From contig JACDBU010000087.1 of NCBI GenBank assembly GCA_013694745.1, positions 1 to 42,288 on the forward strand: a DNA stretch of 42,288 nucleotides, given 5' to 3'. How positions within the stretch are numbered: the first letter of the stretch is position 1; every line of letters starts with the position of its first letter. The notes below the pieces were generated by a model that was not told the origin of the DNA, did no database searches, and saw nothing but the letters and a program-made list of their open reading frames with translations. The position numbers were made by a program, and so were the translations under genes. Below, piece by piece: positions 5,882 to 23,358 of the stretch. The DNA comes from Chitinophagaceae bacterium (GTDB lineage Bacteria; Bacteroidota; Bacteroidia; Chitinophagales; Chitinophagaceae).

Positions 5882-7255
5882 ATGCAAGTTATAGCTTATT
5901 ACGATTATTTATTGTTAGTGCCTTACGGGCTGATATTTTTCTTTATTGCCCGGAGATATGTCAAAAAAACAGCAACGTCGCCATCAGAATATAAATTAAT
6001 AATGTTCGGCTGGTTTTTAAAAATGTTTGCCTGTATATTATATGCATGGCTTATCGTTTATTATTATGGATACGGTGATCCGCTGGGATATTATAATCTC
6101 GCGGGAGAATTGCGCAAGTCTGTTTTAAGCAACTTTTCGAATGTGAAGTTTTTCTTCCAGGATGCCGCAACATTTAAAGCATATATTTCTTCTTTCACCA
6201 ACGAGAACGAATATCTTTCCGGTTACAGTTATTACCTCGACAGCAATTTTATCATCCATAAAATTTGCTGCTTCATTTCATTTTTCACTTTCAACCGCTT
6301 TTTAGTAATAAGCTTTGTTTTTACCAATTTATCTTTTATTGGTTTTGTCATCATTTACAAAACGCTGAAAAAGATAATTGGAGGATATTACAAAGAGATA
6401 CTGCTGGCGTGTATCTTTATTCCATCCTGTATTTTCTGGAGCAGTGGCCTCGCAAAGGAACCAATATGTATGCTTGCGATGGGCGTGCTTTTCAGCAGGC
6501 TGACCGATCTCTTTATTTTTCGCCGTTTTTCATTTGCTTCTTTACTGCTCATCATTTTCTATGGATATATTTTACTCACCGCTAAAAATTATATTTTCAT
6601 TTGCCTCCTGTTGGGCATGGGCATCTGGATCTTTTATTCATCGATCAAAAGAATCATTAACAAAAACCCCATAAAAAAATTCTTCTTTTATTTTTTCATG
6701 ATCGTGGTACTGGTGGGTGGTGGTTATTTATTATCTGATACGGTTACCGGCATTGTGAAAGAGAATGTAGCAGACGTTATTTCGATCAATTTAAATAATT
6801 ACCGGTATATCGGCGAAAGCGGCGGTAGTTTAATTGATGTACAGAATATTGATGTAACCAGCATTGGAGGCATTCTAAAATTTATTCCGCAGGCGATGGC
6901 GAATGTATTTTTCAGGCCCTGGCCCTGGGAGATCTCGAATGTGCTGATGATATTTACTGTGCTGGAAAATCTTTTCTTCATGTTCCTTTTTGTAAAAGTT
7001 TTATTCAGAACACGGCTGTTTACAAGAAACCTGTTCATCAATAAAAATTTCCAGGTGTTTGCCATAATATTCAGTATCACTCTGGCTTTGATCATTGGCA
7101 TGACCACCTTTAATTTTGGCACCATGGTACGTTATAAAACACCATTCCTGCCTTTCTGGGCTGTTTTTTTACTTATTCTAAATAAAAAATTATCACAGAA
7201 AAAAGTAACTAAAAAAGTAATGGTGCAACAGGTGGCTGTTACAACAACTACATAA
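5882..7255 (+). CDS. Polytopic membrane protein, Wzy/EpsG-like polymerase candidate
   Basis: A 457-residue integral membrane protein with about ten hydrophobic segments, the first at residues 8-24 and others around 42-62, 120-160, 175-215, 218-250, 265-285 and in the C-terminal third, ending in a Lys/Thr-rich tail. It lacks clear catalytic motifs. A large hydrophilic stretch at about 65-115 (DPLGYYNLAGELRKS...) and LAKEPICM near 190-200 stand out. Wzy and EpsG polysaccharide polymerases share this general pattern, diverge fast and are usually recognised by topology and context. It is the only plus-strand gene within the glycan locus and converges on the GT4 gene at 7268 with a 12-base gap. 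Polymerase function is inferred; an acyltransferase or another transporter is possible. Confidence 0.55.
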   Translation: MQVIAYYDYLLLVPYGLIFFFIARRYVKKTATSPSEYKLIMFGWFLKMFACILYAWLIVYYYGYGDPLGYYNLAGELRKSVLSNFSNVKFFFQDAATFKAYISSFTNENEYLSGYSYYLDSNFIIHKICCFISFFTFNRFLVISFVFTNLSFIGFVIIYKTLKKIIGGYYKEILLACIFIPSCIFWSSGLAKEPICMLAMGVLFSRLTDLFIFRRFSFASLLLIIFYGYILLTAKNYIFICLLLGMGIWIFYSSIKRIINKNPIKKFFFYFFMIVVLVGGGYLLSDTVTGIVKENVADVISINLNNYRYIGESGGSLIDVQNIDVTSIGGILKFIPQAMANVFFRPWPWEISNVLMIFTVLENLFFMFLFVKVLFRTRLFTRNLFINKNFQVFAIIFSITLALIIGMTTFNFGTMVRYKTPFLPFWAVFLLILNKKLSQKKVTKKVMVQQVAVTTTT

Positions 7256-7267
7256 GCAACACCAGGA

Positions 7268-8392
7268 TTAGCCGGCTAAGATTTTTTTATAAAATGCATC
7301 ATAAGCAGCATACATAGCGTCGGCAGTAAAATGTTTTTTTACATACACATTTTGAGAGGCAACAAGTTTTTCACGCTCGCCGGGATTTTGCAATAGAAAA
7401 ATAATTTTTTTAGCAACTTCTTTCCCATCGGCATCAGACCATACCCAGTCGTTTTCATTAGCCTTATAATTTTCAATTAACTGTATGCCGACAACGGGGA
7501 TACCACACATGGCAGCTTCTATCATAGAAATTCCGGCGGTATCACCCACACTTACAGAAACATAAATAGTAAGTTGTGCAATTATATCAAGGGGGTTATT
7601 CACCAATCCCGGCATTGACACTTGCTCGGTAAGTCCGGATGCATTTACCTGGCTTTTAATATTTTCGAATTCACTTCCACCGCCCGCTAAAATAAAATGT
7701 ACCTCTTCTCCAAGTGCCTTGTAAATATCAAGGAAGATGGGAATGTATAAACCTGGTTTCCTGTCTGGCCGCAGCATACCCACCGTACCAACAACATATT
7801 TATAATTAGAGATGATATGTTCATCTTTGATCAGTGGCATGCCCCCGCTGTTATTTTGTGGTTGCATCACCTTGATCCCGTTTGGGATAATACCCGTTTT
7901 TGATGCCGGGTGTTTTGCCATAAATTTATCCCAAAATGGATCCTTTGCCATAAATGCAACGCCATTGTGAAACAACATCATACGGGAATGTATCCACCGG
8001 TCTATTTTTGGAATTTGCATTCCTACAGCATGATAGGTTTCAATAATTACCGGCTTTTTATTGCGGGAAAATTTTTTTAGGAGAATGCTTGCCATGGCTC
8101 CAAAAAATGCTCCGTAACTAAGATGACAATGCAGCACATCATTGCCAGATATCCATTTCCTGTTATTAATTATCCAGGGCGCAATATTTAAATAGGCAAG
8201 CTGTTTAGTTTTGGCAACAAACTTTATGTCAACTTTTGGATCAATATTTTTTTGTAAAAATTCAGGATCAACAGGCCAGCCAGCAATGATGCTAACCACA
8301 TCTCCATTTTGTGCAGCAGCATTTGCCAGTTCCACAGCAACCCTTTCCCCGCCTCCTTTTGTTAATCCCGACAGCACATGTATTATTTTCAT
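7268..8392 (-). CDS. GT4 glycosyltransferase
   Basis: Probable GT-B retaining glycosyltransferase for the surface glycan. The 374-residue protein opens with MKIIHVLSGLTKGGGERVA, the glycine-rich loop typical of the family, and has GIIPNGIKVM near the domain boundary, a donor domain starting YKYVVGTVGMLRPDRKPGL, and the segment GISMIEAAMCGIPVVGIQ that positions the nucleotide sugar. Length is usual for the family. It follows the GT4 gene at 8522 by 129 bases without a visible gene between them. Donor and acceptor cannot be told from sequence. Confidence 0.9.
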   Translation of the reverse strand: MKIIHVLSGLTKGGGERVAVELANAAAQNGDVVSIIAGWPVDPEFLQKNIDPKVDIKFVAKTKQLAYLNIAPWIINNRKWISGNDVLHCHLSYGAFFGAMASILLKKFSRNKKPVIIETYHAVGMQIPKIDRWIHSRMMLFHNGVAFMAKDPFWDKFMAKHPASKTGIIPNGIKVMQPQNNSGGMPLIKDEHIISNYKYVVGTVGMLRPDRKPGLYIPIFLDIYKALGEEVHFILAGGGSEFENIKSQVNASGLTEQVSMPGLVNNPLDIIAQLTIYVSVSVGDTAGISMIEAAMCGIPVVGIQLIENYKANENDWVWSDADGKEVAKKIIFLLQNPGEREKLVASQNVYVKKHFTADAMYAAYDAFYKKILAG

Positions 8393-9821: not shown

Positions 9822-10931
9822 TCAATATTGATTTAAACAATTTATTACAGTGCTTACTTCATCATCTGTTAACTCTGCAAACATGGGCAGGGACACACAA
9901 TGCGCAGCGAGGTATTCAGCATTTGGGAAATCACCTTCTTTATATCCCAGGTTATCATAGGCTTTCTGCAAATGGCAGGGCACAGGATAATGTAAGGCAG
10001 GATAAATGTCGTGCTGATTTAAGTACTTCATAAATCCATCGCGGTCTTCAACGGTTACAACAAACAAATGATATACTGAGCCAGACCAGTCGGGCTGTGC
10101 CTGCATTTTTATTTTAGAATTATTTACTTCCTGCTGGTAAAGGGCTGCAATTTCTCTTCTCCTGTTATTCCATCCGCCCAGGTATTTTAATTTTACTTTC
10201 AGTGATGCCGCTTCCAGTCCGCCCATGCGCATATTAAATCCAATTTCATCATGGTAATAGCGAACCACTGAACCGTGGTTTCTTAAACTTTGCAAATGCG
10301 TATAATATTTTTCATTGTTGGTAGTGATACCACCTGCCTCTCCGCACGCTCCTAAATTTTTACCCGGGTAAAAACTAAAGCAGGCCATCTCTCCAAAACC
10401 CCCGACAGGTGTTCCTTTATACGTTGCACCCTGCGCCTGTGCTGCGTCTTCCAATAAATACAAGTTATGTTTTTCACAGAGTTTTTTTACACCATCAATG
10501 TCAAATGGTTGTCCGTATAAATGAACGCCGATTATGGCTTTTGTTTTTGAAGAGATTTTTTCTTCAATTTTAGCCGGGTCTATTTCCCAGGTATCGCTTG
10601 TACAATCAACAAATATAGGAATGGCCCCGGTATAGGATACGCCCCAGGCAGTTGCTATGAAAGTATTGGCAGGTATTATCACTTCATCTCCCACACCAAT
10701 TCCTAAACACAAAAGCGCAAGGTGTAAAGCGGAAGTTCCGTTATCAAGACCAACAGCATATTTTGTATGGCAAAAGGTTGCAAAGGGTTTTTCAAAATCC
10801 TCAACAAAAGAGCCTCCGGAAAAAGCGGTTTGGTCATACACTTTTTCGAAGGCTTCAAAAACTTCTTTCTTAATAAGCTGGTGTTGTTTTTTGAGATCAA
10901 GACAAGCTATTTTATTCTTAGTAAGTAACAT
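9822..10931 (-). CDS. DegT/DnrJ/EryC1 sugar aminotransferase (module 1)
   Basis: PLP-dependent enzyme that aminates a keto-sugar nucleotide, normally with glutamate as donor. The 369 residues include DNGTSALHLAL (cofactor phosphate region), EDAAQAQGA near 161-169 (PLP ring contacts) and [11 protein letters not shown] with the Schiff-base lysine at about 191. It follows the acyltransferase at 10943 by 11 bases, and the repeat evidence shows both once stood directly after the gfo gene now at 16589, so dehydrogenase, N-acyltransferase and aminotransferase would act on one sugar. WbpB/WbpE/WbpD-like chemistry (a UDP-2,3-diamino-uronate) is a reasonable guess. An FdtB/QdtB-type role is the alternative. 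Confidence 0.88.
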   Translation of the reverse strand: MLLTKNKIACLDLKKQHQLIKKEVFEAFEKVYDQTAFSGGSFVEDFEKPFATFCHTKYAVGLDNGTSALHLALLCLGIGVGDEVIIPANTFIATAWGVSYTGAIPIFVDCTSDTWEIDPAKIEEKISSKTKAIIGVHLYGQPFDIDGVKKLCEKHNLYLLEDAAQAQGATYKGTPVGGFGEMACFSFYPGKNLGACGEAGGITTNNEKYYTHLQSLRNHGSVVRYYHDEIGFNMRMGGLEAASLKVKLKYLGGWNNRRREIAALYQQEVNNSKIKMQAQPDWSGSVYHLFVVTVEDRDGFMKYLNQHDIYPALHYPVPCHLQKAYDNLGYKEGDFPNAEYLAAHCVSLPMFAELTDDEVSTVINCLNQY

Positions 10932-10942
10932 AAAAAATTATT

Positions 10943-11434
10943 TTAATCAACGTATTTAATAATGCGTGCGGGATTACCTGCCACCACTGCCTTTGAAGGC
11001 ACATCTTTTGTGACCATGGAACCCGCGCCCACAATGGCTTTTTTACCAATTGTGATGCCGCATAAAATAGTAACACTGGAACCGATGGATGCGCCTTCTT
11101 CAATATTTGTATCAACACATACCCAGTCATCTTCAGTTTGCAGGGCGTTATTTTCATTAGTTGCCCGCGGAAATTTATCATTGATGAAAGTAACATTGTG
11201 GCCGATAAAAACATTATCGGCAATATGTACGCCTTCACAAATAAAACTATGGCTTGAGATCTTACAGTTTTGTCCTATGCTGGCTCCTTTTTGAATTTCT
11301 ACAAAGGCGCCTACTTTGGAGTTGTTGCCAATGCTGCATCCATACGCATTCACAAAATCAAAAATTTTTACATTTTCGCCTACAGATACATTTTTCAGGC
11401 TCTGCTTCTCCGTTTGAACATTCAATATTTCCAT
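10943..11434 (-). CDS. Left-handed beta-helix sugar N-acyltransferase (module 1)
   Basis: Predicted trimeric hexapeptide-repeat acyltransferase that acetylates the amino group of a nucleotide amino sugar using acetyl-CoA. The 163-residue protein is almost wholly made of hexapeptide repeats from about residue 20 (VGENVKIFDFVNAYGCSIG, IGHNVTFINDKFPRA, IGSSVTILCGITIG) and ends VPSKAVVAGNPARIIKYVD, the common terminus of WbpD/FdtC-type enzymes. Its first ~52 codons are duplicated, in damaged form, at 16423-16579. It sits between a relic of the gfo gene's 3' end and the aminotransferase, 11 bases from the latter. Substrate is inferred from neighbours. Confidence 0.88.
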   Translation of the reverse strand: MEILNVQTEKQSLKNVSVGENVKIFDFVNAYGCSIGNNSKVGAFVEIQKGASIGQNCKISSHSFICEGVHIADNVFIGHNVTFINDKFPRATNENNALQTEDDWVCVDTNIEEGASIGSSVTILCGITIGKKAIVGAGSMVTKDVPSKAVVAGNPARIIKYVD

Positions 11435-11503
11435 TAATTTTTTTAATTAAGTTTTACTTCCATACCGTTATTTTTTATCGATTGTTGGGATGCCTCTAAT
11501 ATC
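11271..11503 (-). repeat. ~230-bp direct repeat, copy A
   Basis: This segment matches 16423-16650 in the same orientation. Aligned by eye there are about 13 mismatches in about 222 shared positions, plus three small indels (a 9-base segment present only here, and shorter T runs here by 2 and 1 bases). It spans the 5' third of the intact acyltransferase gene, the 8-base intergenic gap and the last 20 codons of a gfo-type gene. The match stops at 11503, where the AT-rich cassette begins. A is the copy with the intact acyltransferase and the truncated gfo. Confidence 0.92.
11443..11503 (-). pseudogene. 3' relic of the gfo dehydrogenase gene
   Basis: On the minus strand these bases encode EASQQSIKNNGMEVKLN and a stop. 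This is the C-terminus of the intact dehydrogenase at 16589 (EASEQSIKNNGIEVKLN) with two substitutions. Everything upstream of that tail is missing and replaced by unrelated AT-rich sequence. It lies 8 bases before the acyltransferase ATG, matching the 9-base spacing in the other copy, so it marks the original operon junction. Confidence 0.9.
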
Positions 11504-11838
11504 AAAGGATTTTATTTTTATAATCCTTTTAACTAAAAAATTAATTACTAAATCAGGCACCAATATCCATACCCTATAATACTTTTTTTGATCATAAAAA
11601 TTTTCGGCGAAGGTAAATAAACTTCCCTTGTTTACGCTCATAAGCAAAACAATATTTGAAAGCTTGAGAATATATCCAGAAACTACGCGATTCAATTTAA
11701 GACCGTGTTGTACTGAGCTAATCCCGAATTTTTTAATCAATCATTTCTTAAAATAAGAAATTGGGCAAGCTCATAAATGATTATTTCTTTTAAATCAGGA
11801 GATTTGTGAAAGCTTTTGAACGTGAACTATTATCAAGT
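11504..11838 (-). pseudogene. Unidentified decayed coding remnant at the cassette end
   Basis: This stretch between the GT4 gene and the gfo relic has no intact gene. Two short minus-strand reading segments in different frames look protein-like: one ending IIIYELAQFLILRND before a TGA near 11741, and one from 11740 containing FYDQKKYYRVWILVPDLV, which runs into the gfo relic out of frame and stops at 11468. They may be frame-shifted parts of one gene cut off by the cassette boundary. I do not recognise the family, and chance open frames in AT-rich DNA cannot be excluded. Confidence 0.35.
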
Positions 11839-13017
11839 TTATTTATGTCTGTACCCTTTTTTTAAAAAGAATTTTAATTGAATTCTGGTAGCTTCAAAAA
11901 GTAAAAGATCTAAAGTAGAAAATTTCAAAGTATCGTCAGCTCCCTTTTTAAATGCCTTTATGAATAGTTCTGCAACATTTTCAACTGCATAATAAGCAGC
12001 TTTCTTTAAAGATAATTCTCTTTCTCTTTGATATGCTTCGGGTGTAAGGTTGCAGAGATTGTATAAAGATTCCTCATAAGGTATGGTACGTAAATCTTCT
12101 CCGGGTTCACCTAAAATATTATTTGGCAATCTTCCAAGCAGATCATAACTATCATTTTCCTCATCAATAATAGCAACAAGTGATGGCAACCCAATACCTG
12201 CCGCCTCTCCAACGGTAGTACCCATTCCAATAAAGCAATATGCATCCTTTATGATATTATTTATTTCTGAATAGGGGATTGTTCCATAGAAAATTACGTT
12301 CTTCTGCATTTTTAAGTTTGCAACCAACTTTTTTAGCTTGTCATATTCATGGCCCTCTCCAATTATATGGTATGTAAGTTTTAAACCGGTGGTATCATTT
12401 AATTTTTTTATAGCTTTAACAACCCCGAAAGGGTAAGGCTTAAATGCCGTAATTCTGCCAACAGATACGATCTTATTTTTCTCATAGTTATCACTGAGCG
12501 GCTTTTTGTTAATGATCATTGGGAGAGGTATTATGGAAGAATCATCAAAATTTAAATTGTAATATTCATGATGAGATTTTCTACATGCATCATCCATAAA
12601 AATCAAATTAGCAGGGTGTGTATTTTTTATAATTTTTGTATAAAGATATTCCTGGTAATTGTTAATAAAATACGTAGGGATCATAAATTGCCTGGGATGA
12701 TATACCCCTATAAAAATTTTAGCTGTTTTAAAATATAATTTTTTTAACCGGTGGGCTGTAATTGCATCATAGCTTGTGAGGCAATATATAATATCAAAAT
12801 CAAGGTTTTTGTAAAATGATTCATATTCTTTTAAATTCCATTTATTAATGGGTAATATTTTATGCTTTGAACCATACGAATCTATAATTTCACTTTCGCC
12901 GTATTTTGAAAGATAACAATCATATCCATTGTTGTTAAAATAAGAAAAAAGACGACCCGCCAGTGTTACCGTGCCATGTATATTTGTTATAATTTCTTTT
13001 AGTAGTAAAATTTTCAT
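11839..13017 (-). CDS. GT4 glycosyltransferase (cassette)
   Basis: A 392-residue putative GT-B glycosyltransferase. The N-terminus MKILLLKEIITNIHGTVTLAGRL is the usual first strand-loop-helix. The donor domain starts at about 190 with NKIVSVGRITAFKPYPFGVV, continues with YHIIGEGHEYDKLKKLV, and has GTTVGEAAGIGLPSLVAI in the position of the E-x7-E segment. Codon use is markedly AT-rich, like the rest of the cassette. It follows the Wzx-like gene by 29 bases and is the last intact gene of the cassette. It probably transfers a sugar specific to the glycan encoded by the cassette; specificity is unknown. Confidence 0.82.
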   Translation of the reverse strand: MKILLLKEIITNIHGTVTLAGRLFSYFNNNGYDCYLSKYGESEIIDSYGSKHKILPINKWNLKEYESFYKNLDFDIIYCLTSYDAITAHRLKKLYFKTAKIFIGVYHPRQFMIPTYFINNYQEYLYTKIIKNTHPANLIFMDDACRKSHHEYYNLNFDDSSIIPLPMIINKKPLSDNYEKNKIVSVGRITAFKPYPFGVVKAIKKLNDTTGLKLTYHIIGEGHEYDKLKKLVANLKMQKNVIFYGTIPYSEINNIIKDAYCFIGMGTTVGEAAGIGLPSLVAIIDEENDSYDLLGRLPNNILGEPGEDLRTIPYEESLYNLCNLTPEAYQRERELSLKKAAYYAVENVAELFIKAFKKGADDTLKFSTLDLLLFEATRIQLKFFLKKGYRHK

Positions 13018-13046
13018 TCCAAAAAAAACTAAGGGTTTTTAAAAAA

Positions 13047-14291
13047 CTAAAATAAATATTTTCTCATAACCATGATCATCATAATCCAGTATAGAAGATA
13101 GTTCAATGCAAACGCATAAGAGCTGCCTATTAGCCCGAAATTATTTAAAAATAGCCTGGTGAATATTATAAGACTTATGGTAAATACCACTTCAGTAATT
13201 ATAAATGTTTTGATCATAGCTTTTGCAAGCATTAGGTAAGCTAATAACCAACTACCGATTTTAAAAAAATCTCCAAGCAATTGAAAGAGAAAAAGTTCCT
13301 TCATTGGTGTAAATGAATCTGTAAAAACAAGTTTTATAATTATAGCTCTGCACAAAAACATGCCAATTGCAAGGCAACCAACTATAGGTAAAACAATTTT
13401 ATATCCCCTTATTATTTCCTTTTTTATTTCATGGTTTTCTTTGAGGCTCGAGAGTGTGGGAAGGTAATAAACACCCAATATTGTGGTAATAAATAAAAGA
13501 TAGTAATCAGAAATCCTGGTCATAGCCTGCCAATATCCGGCCTGTGTAATACTTAAATGTTTGATGATGTAATCCCTGACAAAGAGTTGGCTTACAGGAC
13601 TTAAGGCGCCGCTTACAACATTCATTAATGTATAGGATAGCAATAGCAATAAAATAGGTTTATTAAAATGCTTTAATGATGGGTATATTGATAAACCATG
13701 AATCCTTTGAAACACGATCAGATTTATTACAAAAAGAGTTAACGCTGTAAAATTAGCAGCTATAAGAACTCCCGTTACACCCAATATATTAGCAAATGAA
13801 ACTGTAAATATTATACCTAGTAAGGCCCCGGATGTATTTACAATGGTAAGCTTTTTAATTTCTTTTATCCCGTTGAGAATTGAGGAAGAAAGAAGATTTA
13901 AAGAAATAAGTATTAAGAAGCTTCCGAATAAAACATAAACCTTCCAATAATCAGGACTATGAAATGCTTTTATTGAAAGGAAACGACTTAAAATAATAAC
14001 AATTATTCCGGTAAATAATGACGAAATAATAACCGTAGTAATTGCAGTTGTTATAACCTGCTGTCTTTTATAAACATCTTCTTTAAACTGGGCAAGGTAT
14101 TTTGTAACTCCTACCGTAATTGATGCTGTACCTGCGAGGGTAAAAAGTGCTGTTGTATTTTGAAATTGCCCCAACTGTGCTACGCCAGCCGGGCCTATTT
14201 TAATTGCAATAACCTTAATTAAAATAAAGCCACTTAAAAACGTAATTGCCGTTGATATAGAGGTATAAAACGAAGTTTTTATAAGGTTCAC
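13047..14291 (-). CDS. Wzx/WzxE-type lipid-linked oligosaccharide flippase
   Basis: Predicted inner-membrane flippase moving undecaprenyl-diphosphate-linked repeat units to the periplasm. The 414-residue protein is almost entirely hydrophobic, with about twelve predicted spans. Its opening LIKTSFYTSISTAITFLSGF followed by KIGPAGVAQLGQFQN is close in pattern to the WzxE/O-antigen translocase subfamily, which is often encoded beside Fuc4NAc or Fuc3NAc genes. The start codon is GTG at 14291, one base after the aminotransferase stop, so translation is probably coupled. Its position directly after the FdtA/C/B-like trio suggests it exports the glycan containing that sugar. Confidence 0.86.
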   Translation of the reverse strand: MNLIKTSFYTSISTAITFLSGFILIKVIAIKIGPAGVAQLGQFQNTTALFTLAGTASITVGVTKYLAQFKEDVYKRQQVITTAITTVIISSLFTGIIVIILSRFLSIKAFHSPDYWKVYVLFGSFLILISLNLLSSSILNGIKEIKKLTIVNTSGALLGIIFTVSFANILGVTGVLIAANFTALTLFVINLIVFQRIHGLSIYPSLKHFNKPILLLLLSYTLMNVVSGALSPVSQLFVRDYIIKHLSITQAGYWQAMTRISDYYLLFITTILGVYYLPTLSSLKENHEIKKEIIRGYKIVLPIVGCLAIGMFLCRAIIIKLVFTDSFTPMKELFLFQLLGDFFKIGSWLLAYLMLAKAMIKTFIITEVVFTISLIIFTRLFLNNFGLIGSSYAFALNYLLYWIMMIMVMRKYLF

Positions 14292-14292
14292 C

Positions 14293-15396
14293 TTATTGAT
14301 AAATGTTTAGCACCTTTATTATTTCTGAAACTTCGTCATGAGAAATAATATTACTTATAGGTAATGATAAAATTGTGGAATGTATTCTTTCGCTTAAAGG
14401 AAAGCTTTTGTCTTGCCAATAAGAATAAGCTTTTTGATGATGCGGCGGAATTGGATAATGTATCATTGTTTCAATTCCATTATTTTTTAAATACAATTGA
14501 AGCTCATCCCTTTTATTTGTGCGTATTGTAAATAAATGCCACACATGTGCATTGGGATGATATGCTTCAGGTAAAATAATTTTTTCGTTTTTTATCTCAG
14601 TAAGATATCTCTGTGCAATTTGCCGGCGGTATGCATTATCCTCGGTAAGGTGCTTAAGTTTTATTGAAAGCATCGGGGCCTGTAATTCATCTAACCTGCT
14701 GTTAATACCTATGTATAAGTTTTCATATTTTTTATGAGATCCATAATTCCTTAATGCTTTAATTATTTCCGCAAGTTCGTGGTCGTTTGTTGTAATGCCC
14801 CCTCCATCACCTAATGCCCCCAAATTTTTTCCCGGGTAAAAGCTGAAACCACTTGCATCTCCCAGGTTTCCACTTTTTTTACCATTAAAATATACTGCAC
14901 CATGAGATTGAGCACTGTCTTCTATAACTTTTAAATTATGCTTTTTAGCTATTGTATTTATTGCATCCATATCACAAAGCTGGCCGTAAAGATGTACAGG
15001 CAAAATTGCTTTTGTAAGGGAAGTTATTTTACTCTCAATCAATGTTGCATCTATAAGGTATGTTTTAATATTTGGCTCACACAAAACAGGAATAAGGCCT
15101 GCTTTTGATATGGCGATTATACTGGCGATGTAGGTATTAGAAGGTACAATTACTTCATCACCTTCTTTTATAACCCCCATTTGCTTATAACCTTCTAAAA
15201 TCAAAATAAGTGCGTCTAATCCATTGGCAGTTCCAATACAATATTTGGCACCACAATATTGAGCAAATTCACTTTCAAAAGCTTCTACCTCTTTACCAAG
15301 TATAAACCAGCCGCTTTTTAAAACCCTGTTGAATGCAGCAGTAAATTCTGCATTGTAAAATGCGTTTATCTTTTGTAAGTCGAGAAATTTTATCAT
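14293..15396 (-). CDS. DegT-family aminotransferase, FdtB/QdtB-like (cassette)
   Basis: Probable dTDP-3-keto-6-deoxyhexose 3-aminotransferase, PLP-dependent. The sequence includes [13 protein letters not shown] (phosphate-binding region), [11 protein letters not shown] and [17 protein letters not shown] with the PLP lysine, a pattern common in FdtB/QdtB enzymes. The ATG at 15396 gives 367 residues starting [15 protein letters not shown], the usual family opening; an in-frame TTG four codons earlier is a weaker start. It follows the acyltransferase at 15417 by 20 bases. Together with the FdtA-like gene it defines the dTDP-3-amino-3,6-dideoxyhexose route. Fuc3N versus Qui3N cannot be decided from sequence by eye. 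Confidence 0.87.
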
Positions 15397-15416
15397 GTTA
15401 CTATTCAACCGTTAAA

Positions 15417-15899
15417 TTAATATCTTTCAATAATATTCCCTTTATCATCAACTTTACCTTTTACCCTGCCCGGGTTACCAGAAATGCAAGCATAAGAAGG
15501 TACATTTCTAGTTACTACACTGCCTGCGCCTATCATAGCATATTCGCCAATTGTTATACCCCCAAGTATAGTGGCATTTGCGCCGATTGATGCACCCCTT
15601 GATATTATTGTAGATTGATATGCATCAGGATACTGTTTAGATTTGGGATATTTATCATTTGTAAAAGTTACATTAGGGCCTATAAAAACCTGATCTTCTA
15701 TCCTTATCCCATCCCATAAATACACACCACTTTTAATAGTTACATTATCACCAATAACAACATCGTTCTCAATAAAAGTATGGCAATTGATGTTGCAGTT
15801 TTTTCCGATAACAGCACCGGGTAATATTACAGCAAACTGCCATACAAAAGTACCGGTACCAATTTGAATAGATTGCACATCAGCAGTTGGATGTATCAT
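15417..15899 (-). CDS. Left-handed beta-helix N-acyltransferase, FdtC/QdtC-like (cassette)
   Basis: Predicted trimeric acyltransferase that acetylates the 3-amino group of the dTDP-amino sugar. The 160 residues are mostly hexapeptide repeats from residue 10 ([55 protein letters not shown]) and end [20 protein letters not shown]. Its start overlaps the upstream ketoisomerase stop by 4 bases. It is a paralogue of the acyltransferases at 10943 and 24470, which share the same fold and terminal GNP motif. Function is assigned from fold plus neighbours. Confidence 0.87.
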
Positions 15900-16291
15900 T
15901 TTATGGATTGAAATATTGTATAATCTCTGATATAATCATCTTCCCGGTAAGCCATATTTGCAATACACATTTGAACTGCATTATGGCTATACTTCATAAT
16001 ATGCCAGCAATATGGCGGAAGATATATTCCTTCATCTGCATTTTCTAAAATAAATCTTTGTTCATCTTCACCGGGCATTTGAGTAGTTACTATAATTTTC
16101 CCTGAAACGGCAATAAGAATTTGTGCAAGATCATGATGGGCATGGCCGCCTCTTTCAACATTTTCCGGTGTAAAGTATGTCCAGTAAATTCTTTTAACTT
16201 CAAAAGGCAAGTCATCATTTTCTGCAACAGAAATATATCCCTGGATGCTATTTCCAATTTTGGGGAATTTTATAATATGCGGCTTGTTCAT
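15896..16291 (-). CDS. FdtA/QdtA-like dTDP-4-keto-6-deoxyglucose 3,4-ketoisomerase
   Basis: Predicted cupin enzyme that moves the keto group of dTDP-4-keto-6-deoxyglucose from C4 to C3, the branch step towards Fuc3NAc or Qui3NAc. The 131-residue length matches FdtA. The motif [14 protein letters not shown] at about 46-59 supplies the conserved histidines of the family, and the Tyr/Trp-rich WTYFTPENV and [12 protein letters not shown] segments fit the cupin core. It is the first intact gene of the cassette, one base after an unidentified 3' remnant, and overlaps the acyltransferase by 4 bases. FdtA (galacto product) and QdtA (gluco product) differ subtly and are not separated here. Confidence 0.87.
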
Positions 16292-16292
16292 T

Positions 16293-16422
16293 TTATCCGG
16301 TTATTTGTGTTAAATATTCCCATATCAACTCTTTTTCAAACTCTCTGCCTGTTGCATTAATTGTTCTTATTGATGAAATCTATACGTCATGCAACTTCTT
16401 CAGGGCAGCTAATCTTAGATCC
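16293..16422 (-). pseudogene. Unidentified 3' gene remnant with in-frame amber
   Basis: From the repeat boundary a single minus-strand frame reads DLRLAALKKLHDV, a TAG at 16380-16382, then ISSIRTINATGREFEKELI and EYLTQITG, ending in TAA one base before the ketoisomerase ATG. The tight spacing looks like a normal operon junction, so this is probably the C-terminal end of a gene that once preceded the ketoisomerase. I do not recognise the family. The upstream part was lost at the junction with repeat copy B. Confidence 0.45.
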
Positions 16423-16579
16423 TGTCCTATGCCGGCTCCTTTTTTTGGATCTCTACAAAGGCGCCTACTTTGGTGTTGTTACCTAAGTTGCATCCATACG
16501 CATTCACTAAATCAAAAATTTTTACATCAGATACATTTTTCAGGCTCTGCTTCTCCGTTTGAACATTCAATATTTCCAT
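16423..16579 (-). pseudogene. 5' fragment of the module-1 acyltransferase gene
   Basis: Starting at the ATG (16579) this fragment repeats the opening of the intact gene at 10943-11434 (MEILNVQTEKQSLKNVS). It carries a 9-base in-frame deletion, and further on a T run lengthened by two bases (7 versus 5), which shifts the frame. It stops matching after ~52 codons, where unrelated sequence starts. It is not expected to make a working enzyme. Confidence 0.92.
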
Positions 16580-16650
16580 TAATTTTTTTTAATTAAGTTT
16601 TACTTCTATACCGTTATTTTTTATCGATTGTTCAGATGCCTCTAACATCT
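16423..16650 (-). repeat. ~230-bp direct repeat, copy B
   Basis: Partner of 11271-11503 in the same orientation, about 94% identical by eye. It comprises the 5' fragment of the acyltransferase gene, the 9-base gap and the last ~20 codons of the intact gfo gene. The match ends at 16650 inside gfo and at 16423 beside the unidentified remnant. Copies A and B are offset by about 5.15 kb. Confidence 0.92.
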
Positions 16651-17596
16651 TTACAATATCCATCCCAATTATGTAGGAAGACCTGGGAAAGGTATGCTGC
16701 GTAATGCCTGAGATAAAATCGTATGCAACTGAAGCAAGGGCTTCTTTGTTGCTTACTTTGGGCACAAAAATATCACCTACCCGGTAATCCACTAATATTT
16801 GTTTTTTATCCTCATCAGATGTTATCTGGTAGGCGGTGTCATAAATTTTTATTTTTTCAGTTGGTTCCACATCGTTGTAGATGATCATTTTTTTATCGCC
16901 GCCAATCATCATCATTCTTACTTTCACCGGGCTGCTCCATGAACAATTTAAATGGGCTATAAAGCCAGACTCATAATTGATAGTCATGAAGGCAATGTTC
17001 TCGATCCCGTTATGGGTGTGACTTACACCGGTTGCATTGATACTGTATGGTGTAGCATCATATAAATAACGCAAGATGGAAAGATCGTGAGGAGCAAGAT
17101 CCCAGAGTACATTTATATCCGGCTGAAACAACCCCAGGTTGATGCGGGTAGAATCGAGGTATTGAATTTTCCCCAACGTATTATCGTCTATGATCTCTTT
17201 TATTTTTTCAACAGCACCGGTGTACAAAAAAGTATGATCCACCATTAACACGAGGTTTTTCTGCAGGGAAAGCTCAATTAATTTTTCACATTCAGCAAGT
17301 GATGAGGCCATGGGTTTTTCCAGCAAAACATGTTTGCCATTTAGCAGGGCTTTCTGAGCCAGTTCAAAATGAGAATACACCGGGGTGGCTATGATAACCG
17401 CATCAATTTCCGGGTCGTTGATTATGGCCTCTGCATCATGCACTGCATTTATGGATGGATATGATTGTTTAAGAATATCTAAACGGTTTTGCCTCGCATC
17501 AGCAACAGCCTTAATGGTGCAGTCTTTTTGAATAAAAAAATTGCGCACTAGATTCGGCCCCCAGTATCCATACCCAATTATACCAACTTGAATCAT
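16589..17596 (-). CDS. Gfo/Idh/MocA sugar-nucleotide dehydrogenase
   Basis: NAD(P)-dependent oxidoreductase, probably oxidising a nucleotide sugar to a keto sugar for amination. The ATG at 17596 gives 335 residues starting MIQVGIIGYGYWGPNLV, with the Rossmann loop GYGYWG at 8-13. The family signature LLEKPMA follows near residue 95, and WDLAPHDLSILRYL around 180 carries the substrate-domain histidine. An in-frame ATG at 17674 would add 26 Lys/Arg/Ile-rich residues before the Rossmann fold and is unlikely. The acyltransferase and aminotransferase it once directly preceded are now at 10943 and 9822. WbpB/WlbA-like oxidation at C3 of a UDP-GlcNAc uronate is the best guess; other sugars are possible. 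Confidence 0.87.
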   Translation of the reverse strand: MIQVGIIGYGYWGPNLVRNFFIQKDCTIKAVADARQNRLDILKQSYPSINAVHDAEAIINDPEIDAVIIATPVYSHFELAQKALLNGKHVLLEKPMASSLAECEKLIELSLQKNLVLMVDHTFLYTGAVEKIKEIIDDNTLGKIQYLDSTRINLGLFQPDINVLWDLAPHDLSILRYLYDATPYSINATGVSHTHNGIENIAFMTINYESGFIAHLNCSWSSPVKVRMMMIGGDKKMIIYNDVEPTEKIKIYDTAYQITSDEDKKQILVDYRVGDIFVPKVSNKEALASVAYDFISGITQHTFPRSSYIIGMDIVKMLEASEQSIKNNGIEVKLN

Positions 17597-17715
17597 AAAA
17601 TTTTTTGCAAAATTAAATAAACTTCGCCTCTTTTCAATTAAGATATTCCTAATAATAATAATACGTGAGAACAATGTAAAAAGTTATGTATTTAAGCGTA
17701 AAGCAACGGGGATGC

Positions 17716-18678
17716 TTAAACAGGATGATCATGCACGGTAACTGTATACCACTCTACAAATTTTTTTAATCCCTCTTTTATAGTGACAGCAGGTTTATAA
17801 TGAAACAATGTTTGAGCGCGGCTTATATCTGCATAGGTGATATCTACATCTCCAGGCTGCATTCCGGTATTTTGAGAAATTATTTTTTTGCCGGTTATTT
17901 CTCCAAGAAGACTTACGAGGTCATTCAATTTTACAGGCAGGTTATTTCCCAGGTTCACTGTTTCAAAAATATTGGTATGGTCTATACTATAATTCATTGC
18001 ATTATAAACACCAGTAAGGATATCATCAATGAATGTATAATCCCTTGCTGATTTACCATCACCAAAGAGTATGATCTCTTCGTCATTTAATATTTTTCTC
18101 ACAAATTTATAAATGGCAAGATCAGGTCGTTGACGGGGACCGTACACCGTAAAAAAACGCAAATTGATCACGTCAATTTTATATAAATGATGATAGGTAT
18201 ACGTTAACAGCTCTGCCGATTTTTTGGTGGATGCATACGGCGAAATGGGATTATCCACGGGATCGCTTTCTGAAAAAGGTATTTTTTTATTGTTGCCATA
18301 CACAGATGACGACGATGCAAAAACCAGTTTTTTTATTCCACGCTCTTTCATGAAATTCAACACTTCCTGTGTTCCGTGGATGTTTGTTTCAATGTAACCC
18401 AGGGGGTTTTCAATTGATGGCCGCACGCCTGCCTTTGCTGCCATGTGTATCACGACATCTATTTTTTCGGCAATAACAGATAAGCCATTGCTGATATTTA
18501 ACTGGTAGAAAGTGAAGGAAGGATTTTTTAAAGCGTTGCTTAAATTTTTTTGTTTTATTTCCTTCGGATAAAAGGGATCAAAATTATCAATGCCAATTAT
18601 TTTGTGATCATGCAGCAATAGAAAATCCACTAAGGAGCTACCTATAAAACCTGCGCAACCTGTAACTAAAATATTCAT
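17716..18678 (-). CDS. NAD-dependent sugar-nucleotide epimerase, UDP-glucuronate 4-epimerase-like
   Basis: Short-chain dehydrogenase-type epimerase acting on a nucleotide sugar in the cytosol. The 320-residue protein opens with the NAD loop TGCAGFIGS at 6-14, has AAKAGVRPSIENPLGYIETN at 80-99 (a pattern characteristic of UDP-glucuronate 4-epimerases), SSSSVYG near 122-128, and the catalytic YASTK with Tyr148 and Lys152. Length fits GAE/CapI enzymes. It precedes the gfo gene by 119 bases. If the GAE assignment is right it makes UDP-galacturonate; other C4 epimerisations cannot be excluded. Confidence 0.85.
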   Translation of the reverse strand: MNILVTGCAGFIGSSLVDFLLLHDHKIIGIDNFDPFYPKEIKQKNLSNALKNPSFTFYQLNISNGLSVIAEKIDVVIHMAAKAGVRPSIENPLGYIETNIHGTQEVLNFMKERGIKKLVFASSSSVYGNNKKIPFSESDPVDNPISPYASTKKSAELLTYTYHHLYKIDVINLRFFTVYGPRQRPDLAIYKFVRKILNDEEIILFGDGKSARDYTFIDDILTGVYNAMNYSIDHTNIFETVNLGNNLPVKLNDLVSLLGEITGKKIISQNTGMQPGDVDITYADISRAQTLFHYKPAVTIKEGLKKFVEWYTVTVHDHPV

Positions 18679-18794
18679 ACCTTTTTTAAAAAATTACGTT
18701 CAAGTGTTTATTTTCTCTTTTATTTTTTTGCTTTTACATCTTCATTAAAATACTAAAGCTTTTTGAAGACTATTTTAATTCTTTAAAACACTAC

Positions 18795-20714
18795 TTACAT
18801 CCATTTTTCATACCACATCTGGAACATGAGAAAAAACCATAACTCCTGAATAACACTATCATCATTGTTATAATAACGGGCTTTCTTTTTTTGTACATAA
18901 TCAATATTCAGCAAATTGTGTTTTTGTAATGCCTCTTTACTCAGATAAATATCAAAATATTTCTTGAGATCTTTTTTAAACCAATTTATTATCGGTACCC
19001 CAAATCCCATTTTGGGGCGGTCCATCAATTCCTTCGGGATGTATTTATGGGTTATTTCTTTTAAAATATATTTTTGAACCCCGTTATAAATTTTCACATT
19101 CCCGGGCAGTTGCGCCATCCATTCTGCAACCCTGTGATCCAGTAAGGGTTCCCTTCCTTCAAGGCTTACACTCATTGATGCCCTGTCTACTTTAGTCAAA
19201 ATATCATCAGGCAAATAAGTTATGTATTCAATTGCGAGCATGGAATTTATATCATTGATATTCTTATCCAGCCTGTTGCTTTTGTTGAAATTGGTTTTGA
19301 TGGGAAATTTTATTACCGGGTTGATGATTGCACTCAATTGGCTAGGGGTATAATGAGATACAAGCCAGTAAAGCATTTCGCCCATATTACCGGATTGGAG
19401 GATCTTTGAAAGCTTATTAGCTTTTTTGCTTAAGCTGTTTTTGGTTGAGTTAGCAAATAAAATATCAGGTATTAATGTGTTCAGCACTTCACCAGAAAAT
19501 TGCCTGATGGTTTTAGGAAATTTAACCATTTTATCCGCTAAATTCATCACTACTTTATGACGTGTATATCCGCCAAACAATTCGTCACCGCCATCCGCAG
19601 AAAGCGCCACTTTTACCGATCCCCTGGCTACCTGGCTAACCAATATGGTTGGAATGGCAGAGCTGTCGCCAAAAGGTTCATCGTAGATCTCGGGCAACTG
19701 CGGCAATATGGTTAAGGCATCTTTATAGGTACAATAATATTCTGTGTGATCTGTTCCTAAATGCGCAGCAACTTTTTTTGCGGCGGGAGCTTCATTAAAA
19801 TTTTCTTCTTTGAAGCCAATGGTAAAGGTTTGTATTTTATTTGTTGTTTCTTTTTGCAATAACCCGGTTACCAGCGAACTGTCGTAACCACCGCTTAAAA
19901 AAACACCAACGGGTACATCGGCCACCATCCTGTAATTACAGGCCGATTGCAATAATTTTTCAGTTTTATCAATAATATCCTGCATTGGCATATTGCTGAT
20001 TACGGGCTTTCGATAATAATCTGTTACATCCCAATAAGTAACCTCTTCAACAGATTTTTTGCGCAGATCAATAACGAGGTAGTGCCCGGGTAAAACTTTA
20101 GTAGTGTGCTGGAAAATACTATGTGGCGCCGGAATGTAACCGAACTGAAAATAGAGCGCCATTGAATTGATATCAATTTCTTTTTTAAACAAGGGATGCT
20201 TGTGGAAGCATTTTAATTCTGATCCAAAAAGTATACAATTATTATGCTGGTAGCAATACAATGGTTTAACCCCAGCGCGGTCCCTGACGGCATACATCAA
20301 ATTCTCTTTTTTATCATACAATAAAAATGCAAACATGCCAATAAATTTGTGGAGGCAGGCCATTCCCCATTTGAGGTATGCCTGTATCACCACTTCAGTA
20401 TCGCTGTGTGTTCTAAACTGAACGCCTTCTGCCTGAAGTTCTTTTTTTACTTCTGCATAATTATATATTTCCCCATTAAAGGCAATAACGATATTTTCAT
20501 CAGCCGATAACATAGGCTGGTGGCCATTAATGGAAGTATCTATGATTGATAAGCGGCGATGACCGAGTGATACAGAACAATAATTATTTTGATGCTGGAA
20601 AGTGCCGCAATCGTCAGGGCCACCAATGGCCATGGTATCACGCATCCGGTTTATCAGTATTTCCGATTGTTGAACGGTATTATTAAAATCAATGATTCCT
20701 GTTATCCGGCACAT
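18795..20714 (-). CDS. Asparagine synthase (glutamine-hydrolysing)-like amidotransferase 2
   Basis: Second AsnB-family amidotransferase of the locus. The ATG at 20714 is chosen because it places Cys at position 2 (MCRITGIIDF), the nucleophile freed by Met removal; a longer frame from 20768 would bury it. The resulting 639-residue protein has GHRRLSIIDT and NGEIYNY in the glutaminase domain, RDRAGVKPLYCY near 144-155, and the ATP loop SGGYDS at 274-279 followed by SADGGDELFGGYTRHK. The usual HRGPDD is altered to IGGPDD, as in many locus-associated relatives. It lies between a flippase and an epimerase, which favours glycan amidation, but asparagine synthesis is possible. Confidence 0.87.
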   Translation of the reverse strand: MCRITGIIDFNNTVQQSEILINRMRDTMAIGGPDDCGTFQHQNNYCSVSLGHRRLSIIDTSINGHQPMLSADENIVIAFNGEIYNYAEVKKELQAEGVQFRTHSDTEVVIQAYLKWGMACLHKFIGMFAFLLYDKKENLMYAVRDRAGVKPLYCYQHNNCILFGSELKCFHKHPLFKKEIDINSMALYFQFGYIPAPHSIFQHTTKVLPGHYLVIDLRKKSVEEVTYWDVTDYYRKPVISNMPMQDIIDKTEKLLQSACNYRMVADVPVGVFLSGGYDSSLVTGLLQKETTNKIQTFTIGFKEENFNEAPAAKKVAAHLGTDHTEYYCTYKDALTILPQLPEIYDEPFGDSSAIPTILVSQVARGSVKVALSADGGDELFGGYTRHKVVMNLADKMVKFPKTIRQFSGEVLNTLIPDILFANSTKNSLSKKANKLSKILQSGNMGEMLYWLVSHYTPSQLSAIINPVIKFPIKTNFNKSNRLDKNINDINSMLAIEYITYLPDDILTKVDRASMSVSLEGREPLLDHRVAEWMAQLPGNVKIYNGVQKYILKEITHKYIPKELMDRPKMGFGVPIINWFKKDLKKYFDIYLSKEALQKHNLLNIDYVQKKKARYYNNDDSVIQELWFFLMFQMWYEKWM

Positions 20715-20920
20715 TGCGTTTAAATTTTTATACTTAAAAACTAATGGCTTTTTACCATTTACTTCCACCCCATTATCTCCGTGTTCGTTCCATGTATCAA
20801 CTTCCTCCAGTTTTTAAGATTATAGTTATCAGTTTTTTATTCCTGAAATTTTGTAATAATCGCTTAATATGTCGTGTATATCCAGCAATGCCATTCCATT
20901 CCAGTAAAAGTAGTTCGTAA

Positions 20921-22459
20921 TTAATTTTCATTGTGAGGTTTAAACACTTTTAATTTTAAAATATTTGATAAATGAAACGATGTTGCTCTGTTTATTTTAA
21001 TAAAATGATTAGCGATTACAATTATCAAATAATATGCAAAGGTAATTAAGATAAGAATGGGCACCGGCTGGTGTATACCAAAAATGAAATAATATATAAC
21101 AATAACGGGTATGTTAAACAACATAATGCCGGCGAAAGATTTAAGCACATTTTTATACATAATGAAAGGAACCAGCCACCGGAATAAAAAAATGCCGGCC
21201 ACGCATACATATATATAATACACCAGCAAGTAAGAAAAAATAAAACCATATTCCACATAATAACGGGTAGCCACCAATAATATGGCGAATAGTACTACAT
21301 TAAAACCTAACTGGAAATAAAAGGCCTCTCTAACTTTTTTTTGTGCAGTTATTATCTTACTTGTAAAAGAATCAATAGTAAGGCAAGGCACGAGGAAGAT
21401 CATGTATTTTAAAAACAGGGCTACTTTGTGTGCAGCTTCTGTAGTAAATCCGCCTCTTAAAAATAAAAAATTTACGATCACATCTGCATACAAATAAGTT
21501 ATGAAGCAAAATGGTATTATTAAAAAAAGCAGCAACCCTATACTTTCCTGGTATATTTTGTTCAGTTCAATATGAAGGTTACGCGAAGCAAGTTCATTAA
21601 ATTTTATACCCGCAACAGCAGCTGTTTGTGTAACTATAAATACTATTGGAACATTCACTACCTGCATGGTATAATTATAGGCCGAATAAGTACCCGGCGC
21701 CAGGCAGATCAATAAAACAATAACACCATAATTGAAAGCAAAAGATGCCAGGCTTCCAAGAAGCACGGTTAATAAATTTGTTTTAATTCTTTTTGAAAGA
21801 TCTTTTATTGATGAAGAGAATTTCCATTTAAGTTTTACAAACATAAATGCCAGCAGTAAAATAACATTCAATATGTAACCCGCTACCAGCCCGGTTAATG
21901 CAGCACTTATGCCGGCGATTTTGTGAAAAATAACGAGAGAAACGAGTGCCAGGATATAGGCGATGCCATTTGCAATTAAGGGAGCTGTAAAATATTTTAA
22001 AGTAGTTAGTACCGACGTTAAGTAATTTGATAAAATTAAAAAAAACGGCAGAGCACTGCTGATGGTTAATAAATAGCGATGCTGGTTTAGCACCTTGCTG
22101 TTGAAGGCTGAAACTGCAGTGAAGAGGGGTACCGAATAAAAGAATAGGACCAGGAATAATATAAAACCGAGTGCAAAAAATAATAATCCAAAAAAATTGT
22201 AAAACCGCATGGCTGCAACATGTCCCACTTTCTCTTCCAGGTGCATGCCTTCGGGAATGATCACACTCACCACGAGCCCATTAACCACAGCAGCAATTAA
22301 AGAAGCAGTGGAAAAGATATAAAAGTAGAGATCCGTTTCAACGTTTGCCCCTAAATAAAAAGCTATAACGATCGTGATAAAAAATGCAATGAATTTTGTA
22401 AAGATGTTTAGCGCTGTGGATTGTATTATCCCTTTTTTGTAGGACTCTGTTTTTAACAT
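20921..22459 (-). CDS. MurJ-like/MOP-superfamily flippase
   Basis: Predicted inner-membrane flippase of the MVF/MurJ branch. The 512-residue protein has roughly 13-14 hydrophobic spans, an N-terminal pattern IIQSTALNIFTKFIAFF followed by YLGANVETDLYFYIFSTASL (resembling the MurJ opening with acidic and polar residues in the first helices), and FLRGGFTTEAAHKVALFLKY around 340, a MurJ-like periplasmic-loop segment. MurJ-family members in glycan loci can stand in for Wzx. The gene follows rmlA by 38 bases. The 206 bases between it and the next gene (20715-20920) hold no recognisable gene. Cellular MurJ is presumably encoded elsewhere, so a role in glycan export is favoured. Confidence 0.85.
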   Translation of the reverse strand: MLKTESYKKGIIQSTALNIFTKFIAFFITIVIAFYLGANVETDLYFYIFSTASLIAAVVNGLVVSVIIPEGMHLEEKVGHVAAMRFYNFFGLLFFALGFILFLVLFFYSVPLFTAVSAFNSKVLNQHRYLLTISSALPFFLILSNYLTSVLTTLKYFTAPLIANGIAYILALVSLVIFHKIAGISAALTGLVAGYILNVILLLAFMFVKLKWKFSSSIKDLSKRIKTNLLTVLLGSLASFAFNYGVIVLLICLAPGTYSAYNYTMQVVNVPIVFIVTQTAAVAGIKFNELASRNLHIELNKIYQESIGLLLFLIIPFCFITYLYADVIVNFLFLRGGFTTEAAHKVALFLKYMIFLVPCLTIDSFTSKIITAQKKVREAFYFQLGFNVVLFAILLVATRYYVEYGFIFSYLLVYYIYVCVAGIFLFRWLVPFIMYKNVLKSFAGIMLFNIPVIVIYYFIFGIHQPVPILILITFAYYLIIVIANHFIKINRATSFHLSNILKLKVFKPHNEN

Positions 22460-22497: not shown

Positions 22498-23358
22498 TTA
22501 GTATGGTATGGTTTTTAAATATTCGCCATAACCGCTTTTATAAAGACTATTAGCCAGTTTCAGCAAAGCTTTTTTATCGATAAATTTCATCCTGTAAGCA
22601 ACTTCTTCGGGACAGCCAATTTTAAATGCCTGCCTTTTTTCTATCACCCTTACAAATTCTGAAGCATCATGAAGCGATTCGAAAGTACCGGTATCAAGCC
22701 AGGCAATGCCACGATTAAATACACAGACTTTTAATTTATTCTTCTCCAGGTATGCCCTGTTCACATCTGTTATTTCGTATTCACCTCTTGCACCCGGTTT
22801 TATTTTCTTTGCAATTTGCACAACATCATTGTTGTAAAAATACAATCCGGGAATGGCATATTTTGATTTGGGGTTGGCCGGTTTTTCTTCAATGCTGATG
22901 GCATTGAATTTTTCATCAAATTCAACAACACCATATCTTTCCGGATCGTTTACCTGGTAAGCGAATATGATCCCGCCTTCCGGTTCAATTGAATTTTGAA
23001 GCAAGGCTGAAAGCCCGCTGCCATGAAAAATATTATCTCCTAATATCAATGCTACACTATCTTTACCAATAAATTTTTCTCCAATAACAAATGCCTGTGC
23101 CAGGCCATTTGGCTTTTCCTGTTTTGCGTATTGCAGGCTGCAGCCCCATTGTGAGCCATCGCCCAACAATTTTTTAAATTGCTGCTGATCATCCGGGGTA
23201 GTAATTACCAGGATCTCTTTTATTCCCGCCAGCATTAATGTACTCACCGGGTAATAGATCATCGGCTTATCGTAAATAGGCATTAGCTGTTTACTGATTC
23301 CCATGGTAATGGGATACAGCCTTGTACCTGAGCCACCGGCTAAAATAATTCCTTTCAT
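22498..23358 (-). CDS. rmlA: Glucose-1-phosphate thymidylyltransferase
   Basis: Makes dTDP-glucose from glucose-1-phosphate and dTTP, the first step of dTDP-deoxysugar synthesis. The 286-residue length is typical. The N-terminus [20 protein letters not shown] holds the nucleotide-binding loop, followed by [28 protein letters not shown] and [14 protein letters not shown], all hallmark segments. It begins 3 bases after the rmlB stop, so the two are co-transcribed. No rmlC or rmlD is seen in the window, so the product is unlikely to be destined for dTDP-rhamnose by these neighbours. Confidence 0.97.

Follow-up and report, generated by a model that had tools for sequence, protein, structure and literature searches.

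How did a block of sugar and flippase genes come to lie inside an older glycan operon, between two copies of a sequence that belongs to that operon? The question is raised by a contig of 42,288 bases, analyzed here over its whole length (the window), from a 2.75-Mb metagenome-assembled genome (MAG) of 261 contigs that is 86.55% complete with 3.92% contamination. The contig carries a surface-glycan locus, probably of a member of Bacteroidota, whose genes discussed here all lie on the minus strand; coordinates of the repeat copies are likewise read on that strand throughout. In the direction of transcription, the locus begins with rmlB, rmlA, and genes for a MurJ-like flippase, an asparagine-synthase-like protein and an epimerase, followed by gfo. 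After gfo come an acyltransferase gene fragment, the end of a second rmlA (rmlA′), fdtA, fdtC, fdtB, wzx, a glycosyltransferase gene, the start of a second gfo (gfo′) and a gfo tail; an intact acyltransferase gene, degT and two glycosyltransferase genes complete the series. Our preferred reading, to which we assign a probability of about two in three, is that a foreign block running from rmlA′ to gfo′ was inserted into a resident gfo–acyltransferase–degT operon, that ~240 bp of the target was duplicated in the process, and that the redundant halves of the duplicate subsequently decayed.

A sugar and flippase block splits a conserved operon

The initial annotation had proposed that a sugar/flippase cassette split an older gfo–acyltransferase–degT operon, and comparison with relatives bears this out. 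A search of 393 other genomes of the family identified 34 with a close gfo, most of them drafts in many contigs, and gene order was examined in 19 of these. Loci were available for 23 gfo matches outside the genome itself, with contiguity gaps measured from tblastn ends. gfo and the acyltransferase gene are contiguous (gap ≤63 nt) in all 20 relatives with a gfo identity of at least 61%, comprising 19 family genomes and one genome of the same order, and in one of the three relatives with an identity of 40–45%. In 19 of the 20, degT directly follows the acyltransferase gene. The same-genus genome G008 holds the uninterrupted series of gfo, acyltransferase gene, degT and two glycosyltransferase genes found in the window, without the block and with a different gene upstream of gfo. 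In the genome under study, the three operon genes are not contiguous, as the block interrupts them. Because gfo and the acyltransferase gene adjoin each other in every one of the 20 close relatives, the insert is what split an older, contiguous operon.

All three resident genes are intact. gfo (16592–17599) encodes a Gfo/Idh/MocA oxidoreductase resembling UDP-N-acetylglucosamine 3-dehydrogenase (PF01408 and PF22725; NF040723 at 134.6 bits, below its cut-off of 450), with an 84% identical ortholog in G008. The hexapeptide acyltransferase (10943–11434, 163 aa; PF00132; 84% to G008) is WbpD-like by position, and the DegT aminotransferase (9822–10931; PF01041, 386.1 bits; 78–79% to G008) is WbpE-like by position; we take WbpB/WbpD/WbpE-like to be fitting names for the three products.

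As a separate observation, the single relative in which degT does not directly follow (G396) has a gap of ~680 nt between the acyltransferase gene and degT (about 7026–7706 of its locus L166), perhaps another insertion in the operon.

Polarizable differences between the repeat copies fall in redundant halves

The block is bracketed by two copies of a ~240-base stretch in the same orientation. Copy A (11259–11503) joins the working acyltransferase head to a dead gfo tail, the last ~18–20 codons; copy B (16424–16649) joins the working gfo tail to the dead first ~50 acyltransferase codons, in which there are a 9-nt deletion and a 2-nt insertion that shifts the frame. Pairwise alignment of 11259–11503 with 16412–16649 gave 219 identical letters of 235 aligned, with gap runs of 1, 9, 2 and 1 nt. 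The low end of copy B (16412–16427) matches rmlA as well as it matches the acyltransferase gene, and the true boundary lies near 16424–16428. We therefore recounted differences without the junction zone, defined as copy B below 16429, which aligns equally with rmlA; this left 205 of 218 letters identical, with substitutions and gap runs together making 16 difference events. The local score of 188.5 is far above the maximum of 27.5 obtained in 300 dinucleotide shuffles, so the ~230-bp repeat that the initial annotation had described around the cassette is real. The longest exact tract, 62 nt starting at 11383 and 16528, spans the gfo end and the acyltransferase start. When 11271–11503 was used as a query against the 2.75-Mb assembly, only copies A and B were matched. 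The make-up described earlier was confirmed for copy B; for copy A it held as to the intact acyltransferase gene and the gfo tail, but the tail does not stand alone, as the adjoining 11524–11682 aligns with the start of gfo.

The differences between the copies are unevenly placed. We polarized them using G008 and G348 as outgroups and checked the indels against seven outgroups. The gfo tail holds four differences in 54 positions, three derived in copy A, none in copy B and one ambiguous. For the acyltransferase head, counted outside the junction zone, the figure is nine in 149, five derived in copy B (all of the polarizable ones), none in copy A and four ambiguous. Thus, with the junction zone excluded, 13 sites differ: five are unpolarized, and the eight polarized ones all fall in a dead half and none in a working half (two-sided binomial p = 0.008). 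Both the 9-nt deletion and the 2-nt insertion, which lie in the dead piece of copy B, are absent from copy A and from all seven outgroups. Codon positions did not discriminate: 4 of 9 differences were at non-third positions, versus 12 of 38 for copy A against G008 (p = 0.47).

Given the eight dead-half changes and the indels in the dead piece, the copies look like duplicates of one native, resident sequence, decaying where they are redundant. The ~6% difference between them had been attributed to a donor from a related strain, a proposal weakened by the placement of all eight polarizable substitutions and both coding indels in the dead halves. Divergence between repeats should accordingly not be taken as donor divergence; here, its polarizable part falls on the redundant halves. 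If the copies began identical, the 6–7% by which the dead halves differ suggests long persistence.

The insert ends in fragments of rmlA and gfo

Between the repeats, the insert of ~4.9 kb has a decayed gene fragment at either edge. At 16293–16427, next to copy B, lies the 3′ end of a second, putatively foreign rmlA (glucose-1-phosphate thymidylyltransferase), whose stop sits one base ahead of the fdtA start. This region gave DNA matches of 70–75% in five genomes of the genus, four of which were reproduced in the fetched loci; in the three whose open reading frames (ORFs) were listed (G019, G016 and G010), the matching gene encodes a 286-aa protein similar to the RmlA of the window. Aligned with the genome's own rmlA, the fragment scored 40, against a maximum of 18.5 in 200 mononucleotide shuffles, with 86 of 132 letters identical; identity to four rmlA genes of the genus was 81–90 of 132. 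The genome's own rmlA is an unlikely source of the piece, since its 86 of 132 compares with 88–90 for three of those genes and 81 for the fourth.

The other edge, at 11504–11682 beside copy A, is the decayed 5′ end of a second gfo, covering the upstream region and ~30 codons. Its 11524–11682 portion aligns with the start of the resident gfo (17523–17682) at a score of 48.5, compared with a maximum of 32 in 300 shuffles, and 111 of 152 letters are identical (about 73%). A search of 394 family genomes with 11504–11840 gave as best match outside the genome itself the gfo start of G348 (58 nt, 78%, E = 7.8 × 10−6). At E ≤ 0.1, 224 of the 394 were matched, mostly through short A+T-rich stretches, and a 30-nt match elsewhere in the query, to G290, was nearly as strong (9.4 × 10−6), so that the G348 match counts by its position and not by its E-value.

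Both fragments have diverged from their resident counterparts far more than copies A and B have from each other. In the coding part of gfo′, 18 of 80 aligned positions differ from the resident gfo, versus 13 of 203 in the repeats (Fisher p = 0.0002, for regions picked after the alignment had been seen). This divergence suggests that rmlA′ and gfo′ came from outside; very fast edge decay, or later homogenization of the repeat core, would be a possible alternative. A donor carrying just a short gfo/acyltransferase junction, as initially proposed, does not agree with these ends, one the 3′ end of rmlA and the other the 5′ end of gfo.

Possible route of integration and competing explanations

The most probable route to this arrangement would be for a linear donor piece with rmlA′ and gfo′ at its ends to have integrated across a pair of sister chromosomes. 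One end would have been anchored where gfo′ is homologous to gfo, and the rmlA′ end would have joined inside the acyltransferase gene without homology. With the ends joined to different sister chromosomes, ~240 bp of the resident gfo tail and acyltransferase head would be copied, one copy at each end of the insert. Each redundant half would then have decayed, leaving one working gfo, acyltransferase gene and degT. At the A-side edge, the 5′ end of gfo′ meets the resident gfo tail at codons that do not match (~31 to ~316), and homologous joining therefore requires a later deletion to be assumed, in which ~0.86 kb would have gone from the gfo body of the anchored copy; alternatively, joining may have been imprecise from the start. 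At the B side, acyltransferase codon ~53 is joined to rmlA′ near codon 244, that is, to an unrelated gene, with up to 4 nt of shared letters by eye, no more than chance could give. No transposase or integrase was found among the five insert ORFs of at least 110 aa, all of which are sugar genes, and the duplication of ~240 nt is not a short target duplication.

Two published cases offered the closest parallels to such a route. A study of Vibrio type VI secretion effector–immunity arrays proposes homology-facilitated illegitimate recombination (PMC5361080), in which, as in the route suggested here, a module is anchored at a homologous end, the other end is joined without homology and old genes are pushed downstream; unlike in those arrays, the resident genes here stay whole, a ~240-bp resident piece is duplicated and there is a single module. 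Merodiploids of Streptococcus pneumoniae, according to the corresponding abstract, arise by transformation through unequal crossing-over and interchromatid integration (PMC3784515); the duplications given there are ~100–900 kb, against ~0.24 kb here (perhaps ~1.1 kb originally, if the gfo′ body was lost later). Among the titles and abstract openings covered, we noticed no repeat-bracketed glycan insert of the same shape, an observation that makes no claim of absence from print. The locus preserves well the scar of ordinary gene shuffling; events of this kind are known, this one is unusually readable, and it shows how surface-glycan loci grow by module addition. Part of the sequence of events can be worked out because relatives with an empty site, the edge fragments and the dead target halves all survive.

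Several points weigh against foreign insertion with target duplication. The block is known from one MAG assembly, and no donor with rmlA, the fdt genes, wzx, the glycosyltransferase gene and gfo in a single locus was found. The microhomology at the junctions (up to 4 nt at copy B) is too short to be informative. Although the cassette has a G+C content of 0.329, versus 0.384–0.400 in gfo and in degT plus the acyltransferase gene, low G+C is not specific to it, as 18001–19500 and 20501–22000 are likewise at 0.33–0.34. The case for foreign edges is built on divergence, and gfo′ could instead be an older, fast-decaying duplicate. In a maximum-likelihood tree, the gfo′ piece groups with the resident gfo, on a very long branch and without decisive support (89/93), and the other grouping is not rejected (p-AU = 0.113). 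Parsimony disagrees with maximum likelihood: quartet counts (outside : with resident : with G008) of 6:4:1, 9:1:1, 7:3:3 and 7:1:4 lean towards a position outside the pair of resident gfo and G008. In a control tree of the gfo tail and acyltransferase head, copy A joined copy B (96/96 without the junction zone), with a grouping of copy B with G008 not rejected (p-AU = 0.143).

The maximum-likelihood tree of gfo′ bears on the strongest competitor, which we regard as a tentative second choice: gfo and the acyltransferase gene were first duplicated in tandem, the block was later inserted between the duplicates, and decay of the redundant halves followed. On this account, gfo′ beside copy A would be what is left of the second gfo, as its grouping with the resident gene suggests, and the pattern of decay in the dead halves also fits. 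A single date of duplication would not be expected to yield the contrast between 18 of 80 and 13 of 203, unless the core was later converted.

The model originally offered, a Campbell-type single crossover in which the operon recombined once with a circular molecule bearing the cassette and a gfo–acyltransferase piece, appears less probable still. It produces the same order of parts, with a whole gfo and a truncated acyltransferase gene on one side and a whole acyltransferase gene on the other, and the halves derived from the donor would coincide with those that are dead today. Two living lineages should, however, split their differences about equally, which the polarization of eight out of eight into dead halves (p = 0.008) opposes; moreover, neither a plasmid gene nor an integrase gene is among the five insert ORFs, and divergence is much greater in the edge fragments than in the repeats.

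It is quite improbable that the ~240-bp copies are a live recombination pair and that the species includes cells with and without the block. Were this so, the population could gain or shed the complete dTDP-sugar/flippase module without the resident aminosugar operon ever losing its function; the module would be an addition to the glycan repertoire and not a replacement. Even less credible is a reversible glycan switch in which recombination of copy A with copy B excises 5145 bp and makes the operon continuous again. A computed crossover in the 62-nt identical core leaves an intact gfo, 12 nt and an intact acyltransferase gene, which shows that the exchange could occur and nothing further. Conservation is highest at the center of the repeat, but its identical run is of a length that chance might also give (p = 0.038 with the junction zone included, 0.073 without it). 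With the block in place, gfo, the acyltransferase gene and degT are all intact, so nothing needs restoring; the dead halves differ by 6–7%, no recombinase was found in the block, and the arrangement is known from one genome. Finally, an assembly chimera of two strains, conceivable in a MAG with this number of contigs, completeness and contamination, is the least plausible account, as a misjoin would more likely link intact genes, whereas what is seen here is redundant halves with a deletion and a frameshift, and decayed pieces of rmlA and gfo at the edges.

Gene content of the block and its predicted sugar

The five insert ORFs are all open. They encode an FdtA-like dTDP-4-keto-6-deoxyhexose 3,4-ketoisomerase (15896–16291; PF05523, 121.9 bits), an FdtC-like hexapeptide acetyltransferase (15417–15899; PF00132), an FdtB-like DegT aminotransferase (14293–15396; PF01041, 366 bits), a WzxE-like flippase (13047–14291; PF01943 at 32.8 bits, cut-off 28.2; NF011679 at 241 bits, below its cut-off of 325) and a GT4-like glycosyltransferase (11839–13017; PF00534). 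The Pfam matches of the first four are above cut-off, and the genes stand in this order on one strand. The order fdtA, acetyltransferase gene, fdtB and wzx recurs in G007, whose acetyltransferase is 71% identical, and in G006; G005 and G014 have the same order but another acetyltransferase. FdtB is 64% identical to its counterparts in G007 and G005. None of these four blocks has a gfo match within the fetched stretch. In G013, fdtC and fdtB occur with two weak FdtA-type matches on a 5-kb contig. Among the 34 gfo-bearing family genomes, none had an FdtA match (E ≤ 10−10) on the contig of gfo, and four had one on another contig. Relatives of the flippase at E ≤ 10−20 were found in 25 of 293 other genomes of the family, the best at 52%; for the adjoining glycosyltransferase, no relative at E ≤ 10−30 was found in 393 other family genomes.

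The cassette acetyltransferase (15417–15899) and aminotransferase (14293–15408) are distantly paralogous (about 40%) to the resident acyltransferase (10943–11434) and aminotransferase (9822–10931), and share short stretches of 72–75% DNA identity with them.

The known function of the fdt family points to a dTDP-3-acetamido-3,6-dideoxyhexose as the predicted product, with dTDP-Fuc3NAc and dTDP-Qui3NAc as candidates. Directly upstream of fdtA there is only the decayed rmlA 3′ end in place of intact rmlB and rmlA; the locus does have intact copies of both, ~6 kb further upstream. The cassette resembles a standard module from which rmlB and the greater part of rmlA have been lost, both being redundant here because of the intact rmlAB upstream. 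From gene content, the block genes, if expressed, probably make and use this acetamido sugar from the keto-sugar of the resident rmlAB. A report on Salmonella enterica Pomona O28 and Escherichia coli O103 describes rmlB–rmlA–fdtA–fdtC–fdtB–wzx in both (PMC2905691). The block in the window is like this O-antigen block, as described there, in the order from rmlA to wzx, in an rmlA end close before fdtA and in low G+C. It differs in that rmlB and most of rmlA are missing, in that a glycosyltransferase gene without close family relatives and the gfo′ 5′ end follow wzx, and in its probable Bacteroidota host.

The resident rmlA (22498–23358; PF00483, 250.1 bits) and rmlB (23362–24423; TIGR01181, 476.5 bits, the only one of ten matches in the genome above cut-off) are a possible source of the precursor for the fdt genes. 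The two are adjacent in the window, unlike in three genomes of the genus, where an ORF of 124–131 aa lies between rmlB and rmlA (L177, 3470–3856; L178, 2161–2535; L179, 3068–3463). The product of this ORF is presumably related to the four-helix family of 23S rRNA intervening-sequence proteins.

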